From positions 44,556-108,555 of the forward strand of contig JASEFX010000005.1 in the NCBI GenBank assembly GCA_030018265.1: DNA of 64,000 bases, read 5' to 3'. This stretch comes from Candidatus Saccharicenans sp. Lineage in GTDB: Bacteria; Acidobacteriota; Aminicenantia; Aminicenantales; Saccharicenantaceae. The position numbers and the translations under genes are program-made. The notes beneath the pieces were generated by a model. It saw only the letters and a program-made list of their open reading frames with translations, was not told where the DNA came from and ran no database searches. Position 1 is the first letter of the stretch. The number at the start of each line of letters is the position of its first letter. Shown here one piece after another: positions 33,637 to 48,070 of the stretch.

Positions 33637-33660
33637 GCAGGAGTGCGGCCGCACTCCTGC
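33637..33660 (-). terminator. Rho-independent terminator of the ferredoxin gene
   Basis: Perfect 24-bp palindrome GCAGGAGTGCGGCCGCACTCCTGC followed on the minus strand by TTTTATTTT. Confidence 0.8.
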
Positions 33661-42892: not shown

Positions 42893-45022
42893 TTGGCTTC
42901 GGGTTATTTCAGAAAACTGACTCTCAGAAACACCTGGCTGACGCTGATCATCTTTGCCATTCCTTTTCTTGCTCTTCTCCTCCTGGTAGACCTTAAAATC
43001 AGCCGGATGATCAAAAACCAGATAAATTCCCAGCTGGCCGCCGCTGTTCAGGATAACCTCAAGACCATCAAGCTTTTTATTGACGACCGTCTGGCCGACC
43101 TGGGTTCAGCTTCCCAGATGCCCTGCCTGGATTTCGGCTGCCTGCCCGACCAGGAAAAAATATTCTTAAACCTGATCCGGGAGAAAAAATGGTACGATTT
43201 CATTTTCATAGCCGATCCCGCCGGCCAGATCATCAAATCATACAATCGAGAACTCAAGGGTGATATCTCCAGCCGTGATTATTTCCAGGCTTCCATCAAA
43301 GGTTATCCCCACATCTCGGATATCTTTCAATCCGACATAACGGGAACCAGCGTGATGGTAATCTCCCAGCCCTTGTTTAATCGAAATAACGAAATCATCG
43401 GCGTAGCCGGGGCCTCGATCAACCTGGAATATCTGTATGGACTGATTTCCGACCTCAGGCTCGGGCGAACGAGCGAACTGTTTCTGCTGAATGACAGAGG
43501 TGAAATCCTCTCGCCGACCAAGCTGGGTGCTTTTCCCTTTGCCGAAAAAGCTTTCTCCGGCGAGCAAAACCCCCACCGGGGAGAAAAGGGAGTTATAGTT
43601 CACCGGGATTATCGAGGAGAAGAGGTTCTCTGCGCCTTTCAGCGACTTCCCGGAACCAGCATCTATCTGGCATCTGAAATGGACCTTAAGGAAGCTCTCC
43701 TCCCCGTTAGCAATTTTAACCGGCTGATCGTTTATTTCTTTCTGCCTTCACTTGTCTTCCTGATAATCATTTCCAATCTTTATTCCAGAAGGGTCACAGG
43801 CCTGATACAGAAATTAACCACCAACTTATCGCGGGCGCTGGAAGAATGCCGTGAGCGAAGACAGCAGCTCGACCGGATCAATCGGGAACTCGAAGGGAAA
43901 ATACTCGAAAGCCAGCGACTGGCGGCAGAACTTCAGCTCTCCGAACAATACATCCTTCATCTTATAGACAGCATTTCTCTGGGGCTGGCCGGTATCGACC
44001 TCGAAGGCAGAATTACCCGGTTTAACAAACACTTTGCCTCTATCTTTTCTCTTGAAGAGGAAAGAAAAGGAGATTATCTGCTGACGGCGGTGCCGGCTCT
44101 TAACGAAAAGGACATAGAAGAAGCCATAAGGCTTACAGCTGAAGAAGCTGTCCCCCATCACCTGACCGCAAGAAAAATTGACCGCGGTCACGGCGAGGAA
44201 TATCTTAACCTTTCCTTCTTCCCGATCGTTAACGGAAATAATCGCCTGCTGGGAATCACCCTGCTGGTGGAAAACGTTACAGAAAAGGAAAAACTCAGAA
44301 CCAAACTGGCTGAATACGAGAAATTATCAGCCCTGAGCCAGCTGGCGCTCGGAGCGGCTCATGAAATAAACAATCCGCTGCTGGGAATTTCTTCTTTTCT
44401 GGAAATTCTCCAGGAAGAAACGACCGACCCCCGGAAAAAGCAGCAGATTGAAGTTGTCCTGGAAAACGTTTACCGCATTTCCCAGACGATCAGGGGACTT
44501 CTCGATTTCGCCCGACCGACTCCACCCCGTTTTACCAGAGTCAATCTGAATCAGGTAATAGAAGAAACTCTGGCTTTTCTCGCACACCAGCCGATCTTCA
44601 AGAAAGTGCGCATAGAGCAGAGATTGTATCCCCGGCTACCGCCGATCACCGCTGACCTCAATCAAATAAGACAGATTCTTACTAACATTTTCATAAACGC
44701 GGCCCAGGCGATGCCCGAGGGAGGAGTGCTATCCGTAAGTACGGCCAAAGTAAAATTCGAGGATTTTGTTCAAGTGGAAATCGCTGACACCGGCATCGGC
44801 ATGAGCCCCGAAGACCTCAAGAGAATATTTGACCCGTTCTTCACCACGAAAAAAACCCAGGGAACGGGACTGGGGTTGAGCATCAGCCTGTCTTACATAA
44901 AAAATCATAACGGAGATATTCAGGTTAGAAGTCAGCCGGGAAAAGGCACCACCGTTATCATCACCCTCCCCATCCACCAGAAAGGGAGAAGGCCGGAAGG
45001 TACCGAGGAGGTCATAAATTGA
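42893..45022 (+). CDS. membrane sensor histidine kinase (Cache-like sensor, PAS, HisKA, HATPase; NtrB-like), TTG start
   Basis: ALGAAHEINNPLLGISSFLEIL H-box; N/G boxes ADTGIGMSPEDLKRIFDPFFTTKKTQGTGLGLSIS. Confidence 0.93.
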   Translation: MASGYFRKLTLRNTWLTLIIFAIPFLALLLLVDLKISRMIKNQINSQLAAAVQDNLKTIKLFIDDRLADLGSASQMPCLDFGCLPDQEKIFLNLIREKKWYDFIFIADPAGQIIKSYNRELKGDISSRDYFQASIKGYPHISDIFQSDITGTSVMVISQPLFNRNNEIIGVAGASINLEYLYGLISDLRLGRTSELFLLNDRGEILSPTKLGAFPFAEKAFSGEQNPHRGEKGVIVHRDYRGEEVLCAFQRLPGTSIYLASEMDLKEALLPVSNFNRLIVYFFLPSLVFLIIISNLYSRRVTGLIQKLTTNLSRALEECRERRQQLDRINRELEGKILESQRLAAELQLSEQYILHLIDSISLGLAGIDLEGRITRFNKHFASIFSLEEERKGDYLLTAVPALNEKDIEEAIRLTAEEAVPHHLTARKIDRGHGEEYLNLSFFPIVNGNNRLLGITLLVENVTEKEKLRTKLAEYEKLSALSQLALGAAHEINNPLLGISSFLEILQEETTDPRKKQQIEVVLENVYRISQTIRGLLDFARPTPPRFTRVNLNQVIEETLAFLAHQPIFKKVRIEQRLYPRLPPITADLNQIRQILTNIFINAAQAMPEGGVLSVSTAKVKFEDFVQVEIADTGIGMSPEDLKRIFDPFFTTKKTQGTGLGLSISLSYIKNHNGDIQVRSQPGKGTTVIITLPIHQKGRRPEGTEEVIN

Positions 45023-46383
45023 AAAGATTTTCCATAATGGTGGTCGACGATGAAATCCTCACCCTTAACAATCTGAAGAAAGCTCTGGAAAAAGAAAATT
45101 ATGAAGTCATTCTGTCTGAATCGGGGGAAAAGGCTCTGGAATTGCTTGAATCCTACCGACCGCATCTTATCCTTCTCGACCTGGTGCTTCCGGGCATCTC
45201 CGGACTGGAAGTTCTGAAAAAAGTCAGGGAAACAGACAGGGAAATAATCGTCATCATGATGTCCGCCTACGAGATCCTGGAAAAAGCCGTCGAAGCCATG
45301 AAACTCGGCGCCTACGACTATCTGCTGAAACCCTTTAAGTTGAGCGACCTGAAAGCCACCATCCAGAGAGCGCTGGACACTCTTTCTTTGAGATTAAGGT
45401 TTCTGGAAGAACTGGAAAAAGAAAAAAGCCGTTATTATTTCGGAAAGATAATCGCTCACAGCAAAAAAATGAAAGACGTTCTGGATCTGGCAGCCCGGGT
45501 GGCCCAGTCAGACAGAACAACCGTTCTGCTCCAGGGAGAAAGCGGAACCGGAAAGGAGCTTCTGGCCAGGGCGATCCACTACCACAGTCCGCGCGCGGAA
45601 AAATCGATTGTGGCCATTAACTGTGCGGCCATTCCGGAGAATCTTCTGGAAAGCGAGCTTTTCGGTTATGAACCCGGCGCCTTTACCGACGCCAGAAGAA
45701 GAAAAACAGGACTGCTGGAGAAAGCGGACGAAGGAACTGTTTTTTTTGATGAGATCGGGGATATGTCGCTTGCGCTTCAGGCAAAGATTCTCAGGGTGAT
45801 TGAAGACGGAACCTTCACCAGGCTCGGCGGGATCCAGCCTGTTCGGATCAACGTCAGAATCATCGCGGCCACCAATAAAGACCTGGCCAGGGAGGTAGAA
45901 AAAGGCAACTTCCGTTCAGACCTTTTTTACCGCCTGAACGTCGTGCCCATCCACCTCCCGCCGCTGAGAGAAAGGAGAGAAGACATCATCCCTTTAGCCT
46001 TATTTTTTATGGAAGAATTCAACCGGGAAATCAAAAGAAATTTCAAGGGCCTGGAATCCGAGGCCGCCAAAGTACTCATCAATTATTCCTGGCCGGGCAA
46101 CGTGCGGGAGCTGAGAAACACCATCGAAAGGATTATGTCCCTCTATCAGGCGGAAACTATACGGTTTGAATTTTTACCAGGAGAAATAAGACAGGAAATT
46201 AACCCGGATGAAGAAAAAATACTGACTGAATTGAGCCAGAACTGGCCAACCCTGGAACAGCTGGAAATAAACTACATTAAAAAAGTGCTCGAGCGAACCG
46301 ACTATAACAGATCCCGGACAGCGAAGATCCTCGGAATCAATCCTGCCACCCTCTACCGCAAGCTCAAAAACTGGAATCTCTGA
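45019..46383 (+). CDS. sigma-54-dependent response regulator (NtrC family)
   Basis: LLDLVLPG receiver; GESGTGKELLARAIHYHS; GAFTDARRRKTGLLEKADEGTVFFDEIGD; Fis-type HTH at C-terminus. Confidence 0.96.
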   Translation: MKRFSIMVVDDEILTLNNLKKALEKENYEVILSESGEKALELLESYRPHLILLDLVLPGISGLEVLKKVRETDREIIVIMMSAYEILEKAVEAMKLGAYDYLLKPFKLSDLKATIQRALDTLSLRLRFLEELEKEKSRYYFGKIIAHSKKMKDVLDLAARVAQSDRTTVLLQGESGTGKELLARAIHYHSPRAEKSIVAINCAAIPENLLESELFGYEPGAFTDARRRKTGLLEKADEGTVFFDEIGDMSLALQAKILRVIEDGTFTRLGGIQPVRINVRIIAATNKDLAREVEKGNFRSDLFYRLNVVPIHLPPLRERREDIIPLALFFMEEFNREIKRNFKGLESEAAKVLINYSWPGNVRELRNTIERIMSLYQAETIRFEFLPGEIRQEINPDEEKILTELSQNWPTLEQLEINYIKKVLERTDYNRSRTAKILGINPATLYRKLKNWNL

Positions 46384-46384
46384 G

Positions 46385-46416
46385 TTTTGCAATTTGCAAT
46401 ATTGCAAATTGCAAAA
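46385..46416. promoter_or_regulatory. perfect 32-bp palindrome, candidate UAS for the upstream NtrC-family regulator
   Basis: TTTTGCAATTTGCAATATTGCAAATTGCAAAA is its own reverse complement; four TTGCAA units at 46387, 46394, 46402, 46409. Confidence 0.8.
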
Positions 46417-46465
46417 ACAGGCGTTTTTAGTTTTTTCTTTTCATTTATTTTCAACTATTTAAATC

Positions 46466-46481
46466 TGGCACGAGAAATGCA
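46466..46481 (+). promoter_or_regulatory. sigma-54 promoter (TGGCACGAGAAATGCA)
   Basis: GG-N10-GC spacing and TGGCAC -24 element; 24 bp before the 83-aa ORF. Confidence 0.85.
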
Positions 46482-46505
46482 TTCAATTAAAGGTGGAGGG
46501 AAGAT

Positions 46506-46757
46506 ATGAAAAACATAATCTCTCTTCCGGTAGAAAAACAGGAAGAAAAGAAAAAACCCGAGCAGAAAGCCCGCATCATCAAATTTCCCGACATCACCCG
46601 GCTGAAGAAAGAAAAATCTGCTTCAAAAAAATCTAACACGGTGAAGCTTACCACCCATTATTTATATTACAAGGGTAGGAAAATACCCATCACTCAGTTT
46701 GAAAAGGCTGGTTACGGAAAACTTCTCAGACTGCTGGTAAAAGAAATTACAGAATAA
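46506..46757 (+). CDS. hypothetical basic small protein (83 aa), first gene of predicted sigma-54 operon
   Basis: AGGTGGAGGG ribosome-binding site; directly downstream of sigma-54 promoter; Lys-rich linkers. Confidence 0.75.
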   Translation: MKNIISLPVEKQEEKKKPEQKARIIKFPDITRLKKEKSASKKSNTVKLTTHYLYYKGRKIPITQFEKAGYGKLLRLLVKEITE

Positions 46758-46768
46758 GAGAGAAAGAT

Positions 46769-48070
46769 ATGCCAGAAAAAGCAAAAATCCATTATATACA
46801 CCCGGTGCCGGAGCCAAAACCCGCGGAAGAATACGATCCATTCTTTGAAGCCACGATGCAGTTTGAGAAAGCAGCCAACTTCCTCGACCTCGATCCCTGG
46901 ATTTACCAGCGGCTAAAATACCCGGAGAGAGAACTGACCGTTCATTTCCCGATCACCATGGACGACGGTCGGGTTGAAGTGTTTTCAGGTTTCCGGGTAC
47001 AGCATTCAACAGTCAGAGGCCCGGCTAAAGGCGGAATCAGATTCTCTCCAAATGCTTCCCTCAGCGAATGCAAAGCGTTAGCCACCTGGATGACCTGGAA
47101 ATGCGCCGTACTCGACCTGCCGTTTGGCGGAGGAAAAGGAGCGGTAATCTGCGACCCGTTGAGAATGTCAGAAAATGAACTCAGAAAGCTGACTAAAGAA
47201 TACACCCTGGCCATAAGAGATATAATCGGTCCCTACAAAGACGTCCCCGCTCCGGACATGTTTACCAACGCTCAGACCATGGCCTGGATAGCGGACGCTT
47301 ACAGCCAGGCCTGCGGTTATCTTGAACCAGCCGTGGTCACTGGAAAACCTGTCCACCTCGGAGGCTCCCAGGGCCGGGCGATGGCCACCGGACTCGGGCT
47401 GTATTTCGTCCTGGAAGAAGCTCTCAAATATCTCGGGATGAATTTGCAGGGCAGAACCGTGGCCATCCTGGGTTTTGGAAACGTTGGATCCTCAATCGCC
47501 AAACTCGTGCATAAAGCTGGTTGCAGGATCATCGCGGTAACCGACATCTTTGGTGGAATATACAGCGAAAAGGGAATTGATCCTTTTGAACTGGAAAAGC
47601 AGGTAAAACAGACAGGCTCGGTGGTAAATTTCCCGGGCACTGAGCCCGTTGATAACGAAAGCCTGATCGCTCTTGACTGCGACATTCTCATCCCTGCCGC
47701 CACCGAGGGGCAGATTCACAAAGGAAAAGCCTCTCAGGTGAAAGCCCGGATAGTACTGGAAGGAGCCAACGGACCGACCACCAACGAAGCTGACCGTATT
47801 CTGGTGGAAAAGGGGGTCCTGGTATGTCCGGACATTCTGGCCAACGCCGGCGGAGTTACCGTCTCTTATCTTGAATGGGTGCAGGACCTGCAGCGTTATT
47901 TCTTCACCGAAGAAGAAGTCGTGGACAAACTGGAAAAAAAGATGAAAAGAGCCTTTCACGAAGTGATTGACATAATGGAAAAGAATAAATTACCGATGAG
48001 AGAAGCGGCTTATGTCCTGGCCGTCGGCCGGGTAGCCGAATCCCTCAAGGCTCTGGGCCGTGCAGCCTGA
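46769..48070 (+). CDS. gdhA: Glu/Leu/Phe/Val dehydrogenase (glutamate dehydrogenase type)
   Basis: GPAKGGIRF, MTWKCAVLDLPFGGGKG, PAPDMFTNAQTMAW, GFGNVGSSIAKL, EGANGPTTNEAD. Confidence 0.93.
   Translation: MPEKAKIHYIHPVPEPKPAEEYDPFFEATMQFEKAANFLDLDPWIYQRLKYPERELTVHFPITMDDGRVEVFSGFRVQHSTVRGPAKGGIRFSPNASLSECKALATWMTWKCAVLDLPFGGGKGAVICDPLRMSENELRKLTKEYTLAIRDIIGPYKDVPAPDMFTNAQTMAWIADAYSQACGYLEPAVVTGKPVHLGGSQGRAMATGLGLYFVLEEALKYLGMNLQGRTVAILGFGNVGSSIAKLVHKAGCRIIAVTDIFGGIYSEKGIDPFELEKQVKQTGSVVNFPGTEPVDNESLIALDCDILIPAATEGQIHKGKASQVKARIVLEGANGPTTNEADRILVEKGVLVCPDILANAGGVTVSYLEWVQDLQRYFFTEEEVVDKLEKKMKRAFHEVIDIMEKNKLPMREAAYVLAVGRVAESLKALGRAA

Follow-up and report, generated by a model that had tools for sequence, protein, structure and literature searches.

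A conserved dyad behind an NtrC-type regulator gene is very probably the enhancer of a glutamate dehydrogenase operon in Aminicenantes

What function might be served by a perfect 32-bp palindrome that lies directly behind the gene of an NtrC-type response regulator in Candidatus Saccharicenans sp.? The initial annotation of the 64,000-nucleotide stretch of DNA analysed here (the window) had proposed an upstream activating sequence (UAS) rather than a terminator. On the evidence given below, we hold it to be highly probable that the palindrome is the UAS, i.e., the bacterial enhancer, of a sigma-54 promoter transcribing the genes of a small conserved protein and of a glutamate dehydrogenase. 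The features concerned are the following (positions of the window):

42893 to 45022, plus strand: sensor histidine kinase, putative signal input (dCache_1, PAS, HisKA and HATPase_c in this order, from Pfam matches)
45019 to 46383, plus strand: NtrC/AtoC-type response regulator, putative binder of the palindrome (Pfam: receiver, sigma-54 AAA+, HTH_8)
46385 to 46416, no strand: 32-bp palindrome, putative UAS, with a 28-bp dyad at 46387 to 46414 (TNGCAWWTTGCANTAKNGCAAWWTGCNA) as conserved core
46449 to 46461, plus strand: IHF-like core (TTTCAACTATTTA, matching WATCAANNNNTTR at 8 of 9 positions), part of a conserved A/T-rich block
46466 to 46480, plus strand: sigma-54 promoter, -24/-12 (TGGCACGAGAAATGC), found in all 18 orthologous gaps with invariant GG and GC
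46506 to 46757, plus strand: conserved 83-aa protein, encoded by the putative first gene of the controlled operon (C-terminal residues invariant in an alignment of 16 sequences)
46769 to 48070, plus strand: glutamate dehydrogenase, putative second gene of the controlled operon (PF00208/PF02812)

The sequence at 46385-46416, TTTTGCAATTTGCAATATTGCAAATTGCAAAA, reads identically on both strands, and one nucleotide separates it from the TGA stop codon of the regulator gene (46381-46383), just as the initial annotation had described it. The four TTGCAA units that it had counted were located at 46387, 46394, 46402 and 46409, with a spacing of 7/8/7. This is the longest perfect palindrome of the window, followed by palindromes of 24, 18 and 14 bp; base composition predicts about 1.5e-5 perfect palindromes of 32 bp for a window and 5.5e-4 for a genome of 2.37 Mb. 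No second copy of the half-element TTGCAANTTGCAA was detected in the 2.37-Mb assembly with one mismatch allowed. The 24-bp palindrome (33637-33660, GCAGGAGTGCGGCCGCACTCCTGC), which is followed by TTTTATTTTAAG on the minus strand and lies between minus-strand genes, looks like an ordinary intrinsic terminator.

Conservation of the palindrome was examined in 20 Aminicenantes genomes with a readable region, comprising 18 regulator orthologs from four families of the class and two further contigs (L131 and L133) that were reached via the small gene. The orthologs are the window's own regulator, 16 other full-length proteins (65-82% identity) and, from the genome G359, a truncated protein that was found through the dyad itself. 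Identity amounted to 81-82% in five congeners and to 65-70% in 11 proteins that a class-level search added from three other families. All 18 gaps behind these regulator genes, as well as both additional contigs, contain a common 28-bp dyad, TNGCA-WW-TTGC-ANTAKN-GCAA-WW-TGCNA, and the 28-column logo of this dyad gives TNGCAWWTTGCANTAKNGCAAWWTGCNA. Its invariant columns (counted from 0) are T in column 0, TGC in 8-10, TA in 13-14, GCA in 17-19 and GC in 24-25; the outer GC pairs vary little or not at all, and the linkers are W-rich and non-complementary. A distance of 10 bp, one helical turn, separates the inner half-sites, and another 7 bp on either side leads to the outer halves. A fully symmetric 28-mer is present in identical form in the window, G031 and G359; the terminal bases of the palindrome, outside this core, are not conserved. 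The reading of the site as four TTGCAA units thus holds in most of the genus, but across the families only four TTGC-type half-sites around one two-fold axis are retained. In the alignment, conservation falls on TTGC/GCAA half-sites arranged as a 28-bp dyad and not on four complete TTGCAA hexamers, and part of the perfect symmetry over 32 bp is fortuitous.

Over the 18 gaps, the distance between dyad and promoter is 79 bp in seven genomes and 80 bp in 11, and the dyads of L131 and L133 lie again 80 bp from the promoter; in the six gaps of the window's genus (its own and five congeners) site and promoter can be aligned without any indel. The distance between the regulator stop codon and the dyad varies from 3 to 592 nt across the same 18 gaps. 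The locus of G223 (L097:1668-2480) is a natural insertion experiment: only 30 codons of the small gene are left and the site lies 592 nt from the regulator gene, with a site-to-promoter distance that is still 79 bp. In the window, the implied transcription start is located at 46492, 14 nt upstream of the ATG of the 83-aa gene (46506), and the dyad is centered at about -92, in good agreement with the approximately 90 bp estimated at first and inside the 80-150 bp range for a symmetric UAS. The genome encodes sigma-54 (rpoN; PF04552, E 5e-61) and two proteins of the HU/IHF family. The best IHF-like match is centered at -37/-38 in 15 of the 18 gaps; since shuffled A/T-rich sequences reach nearly the same scores, a bend site between UAS and promoter is a weak lead.

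A palindrome situated so closely behind a stop codon might also be thought to form an intrinsic terminator, or an RNA hairpin of another sort, where the kinase-regulator transcript ends. The palindrome RNA folds well (-16.2 kcal/mol, z -4.1), and the initial annotation needs a qualification here, in that 7 nt downstream there is a T-rich stretch (46424-46436). A terminator could therefore be excluded only by comparison and not by inspection by eye. The comparison speaks clearly against it: the site keeps its distance of 79-80 bp to the promoter and not its distance to the regulator 3' end, and the paired positions of the dyad do not covary. The number of Watson-Crick cells observed was 198, compared with 195.3 +/- 3.9 after partner shuffling, and 549 of 2000 shuffles matched or exceeded the observed value; variable paired positions are mismatched in about half of the sequences. 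Moreover, a terminator scan found none at the palindrome, and no Rfam family matched there. On the basis of the distances and the absent covariation we rejected a terminator or RNA hairpin, which we regard as extremely improbable; the dyad is, as far as these comparisons tell, conserved as a DNA site and not as RNA pairing. The refuting condition named at the outset, absence of the palindrome from orthologous gaps, did not come true: the site was seen in 18 of 18 gaps and in the two contigs, which supports the preference for a UAS over a terminator with which the analysis began.

The adjacent regulator is the probable binder of such a site. It contains a receiver domain (PF00072), a sigma-54 AAA+ domain (PF00158, E 1.7e-69) and a Fis-type HTH (PF02954), and all 17 full-length regulators possess a GAFTDA loop, a variant of the GAFTGA type in which the Thr is kept. 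Together with the genomic sigma-54, these features identify it by prediction as a member of the sigma-54 enhancer-binding proteins (NtrC family). Two points count against a UAS that is served by this particular regulator. Its HTH is only 50-65% identical among the orthologs (rows of paralogs were left out of this comparison), which is below the conservation of the receiver and the AAA+ domain, with a similar pattern in the recognition helix; and many NtrC-type paralogs are encoded per genome, with 23 matches in the window's own genome, so that another of them could in principle bind the dyad. The palindrome might accordingly be an operator for a paralogous NtrC-type activator, or for a repressor, acting at the same promoter, and a TTGCAA-type dyad alone is not diagnostic of one family. 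We consider such an operator very unlikely, since full sites occur only in genomes that carry an ortholog of the adjacent regulator, in single copy and beside it, and a position around -92 with fixed spacing suits an enhancer better than the promoter-overlapping operator of a repressor.

A lead towards direct reading by the adjacent regulator comes from its recognition helix. All six regulators whose helix starts with N have A/T on both sides of the dyad's central TA, and 11 of the 12 that start with H have a G or C next to it on one side or both. The exception is G359, which combines H with A/T. In view of this exception and of the relatedness of the sequences, this partial correlation between helix and axis bases is kept as a lead only; it would fit direct reading of the dyad.

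The occurrence of the site was followed through the family of 34 genomes. The regulator ortholog and this type of glutamate dehydrogenase are both present in six of them and both absent from 28, and each of the six regulator-carrying genomes contains exactly one full site. The remaining matches in the family have three mismatches, and the reversed pattern is matched about equally rarely; the window's genome has a single site of this kind (C31:6190), which looks chance-like. Upstream of the other-type glutamate dehydrogenases of relatives in the same family that lack the regulator, no dyad was detected (12 of the 18 conserved positions at best), nor any convincing sigma-54 promoter. With a single full site in each genome, the regulator seems to serve one operon alone. 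A larger regulon was also considered and rejected; the genome search for half-sites and full sites returned this locus alone.

All orthologs lie, as far as the contigs extend, in a cluster of kinase, regulator, small gene and dehydrogenase in this order: an ortholog of the kinase occupies the same place on every contig reaching far enough upstream, and an ortholog of the dehydrogenase belongs to the cluster on every contig covering its position. The closest NCBIfam model of the glutamate dehydrogenase is archaeal GdhA, with a score below the cut-off. The 83-aa protein has no match in Pfam or NCBIfam, and its structure prediction is of low confidence (pLDDT 66, pTM 0.36). Its C-terminal motif, KYLYYKGKKIPIxQFQKAGYDKLLKLLVKEI, is nearly invariant. 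Among 84,980 species genomes scanned for the small protein, it turned up on 19 contigs only, 14 of which are titled Aminicenantes or Saccharicenans. The protein of about 80 aa is possibly a partner of the glutamate dehydrogenase.

The signal might be sought in the dCache domain of the kinase (43007-43660). Solved structures similar to the kinase name no ligand, because they cover only the PAS domain and the kinase core (residues ~356 onward). Amino-acid-binding dCache domains usually contain RxWY plus an Asp. The domain of this kinase contains SSRDYF, and GASINL stands where the usual Asp is missing; we presume that it looks more like a sensor of the organic-acid type.

Taken as a whole, the comparative data suggest that the sensor-regulator pair encoded just upstream very probably has the palindrome as its landing site on the DNA and would switch on the glutamate dehydrogenase operon from there. 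The membrane histidine kinase would sense a signal via its dCache domain and phosphorylate the NtrC-type response regulator, whose dimers would bind the 28-bp dyad at about -92 and assemble there. By looping of the A/T-rich spacer of about 50 bp, the regulator would contact the sigma-54 RNA polymerase at -24/-12, and ATP hydrolysis by the AAA+ domain would open the promoter. Three elements of this scheme are inferred: that the regulator binds the dyad, that its effect is activation and not repression, and what kind of signal is sensed. With a site at constant promoter distance in 20 of 20 readable Aminicenantes genomes, the locus represents a well-supported example of a familiar switch.

Several known systems resemble this circuit in part. 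The enhancers of NtrC (NR I), for instance that of glnA, have the consensus TGCACYANNNTGGTGCA, are two-fold symmetric and lie about 90-150 bp upstream of the -24/-12 promoter. The Aminicenantes locus shares with them a symmetric site upstream of such a promoter, an activator with receiver, AAA+ and HTH domains, and a nitrogen-related target; it differs in the sequence of the site and in its kinase, which is a dCache sensor whereas NtrB is cytosolic. The regulator scores 425.4 bits against the NtrC model (TIGR01818), below the cut-off of 558.6. Nearest in organization is AtoSC with atoDAEB of Escherichia coli, an adjacent pair of a kinase and an NtrC-type regulator that has a palindromic site of two inverted 20-bp halves and a sigma-54 operon (PMC3118216). 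The AtoC motif GCkATrCrrnnATTTrCwCA loosely resembles TNGCA..TTGC of the dyad (PMC3118216), and the best NCBIfam scores were obtained with AtoC for the regulator (452.7 bits; equivalog PRK11361, cut-off 714) and with AtoS for the kinase (309.4 bits, cut-off 646), both far below the cut-offs. Unlike in AtoSC, the target is a glutamate dehydrogenase and not the ato operon, and the site measures 28 bp and not 40 bp. The HTH of NtrX from Brucella and Sinorhizobium binds short palindromes of the type CAA-N2-5-TTG (PMC9223101), to which the CAA-TA-TTG center of the window's palindrome corresponds. In distant orthologs, however, the center is no longer CAA-N2-TTG (e.g., GCAGTATAGCAA), and the dyad core is larger and tied to a sigma-54 promoter; the score against NtrX (NF051870) was 372.8 bits, with a cut-off of 600. 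Because the scores lie below the cut-offs and an NtrX-type center is absent from distant orthologs, regulator and site are classified as an NtrC-family activator with its UAS, distinct from AtoC, NtrC and NtrX.

The literature search returned nothing on a circuit of kinase, regulator and glutamate dehydrogenase; within the literature searched, the circuit, well supported by the comparison, is previously undescribed, and the mechanism itself is textbook. A more far-reaching proposal, which we put forward as speculative and rather doubtful, is that Aminicenantes possess an operon-dedicated two-component switch of their own, in which a dCache kinase and an enhancer-binding regulator with a new four-half-site 28-bp dyad would control glutamate dehydrogenase and a partner of about 80 aa that may modify or anchor the enzyme, and in which the first residue of the recognition helix (N or H) may co-vary with the bases flanking the axis.

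A complete and testable circuit, consisting of sensor, activator, operator, promoter and target, thus becomes available for a group that was seen here only as metagenome-assembled genomes. Through it, glutamate dehydrogenase, which stands at a key junction of amino-acid metabolism with central carbon metabolism, would be tied to a dCache sensor, and the exact spacing and the four half-sites of the dyad constitute a clean natural data set for the reading of DNA by the HTH domains of NtrC-type regulators.
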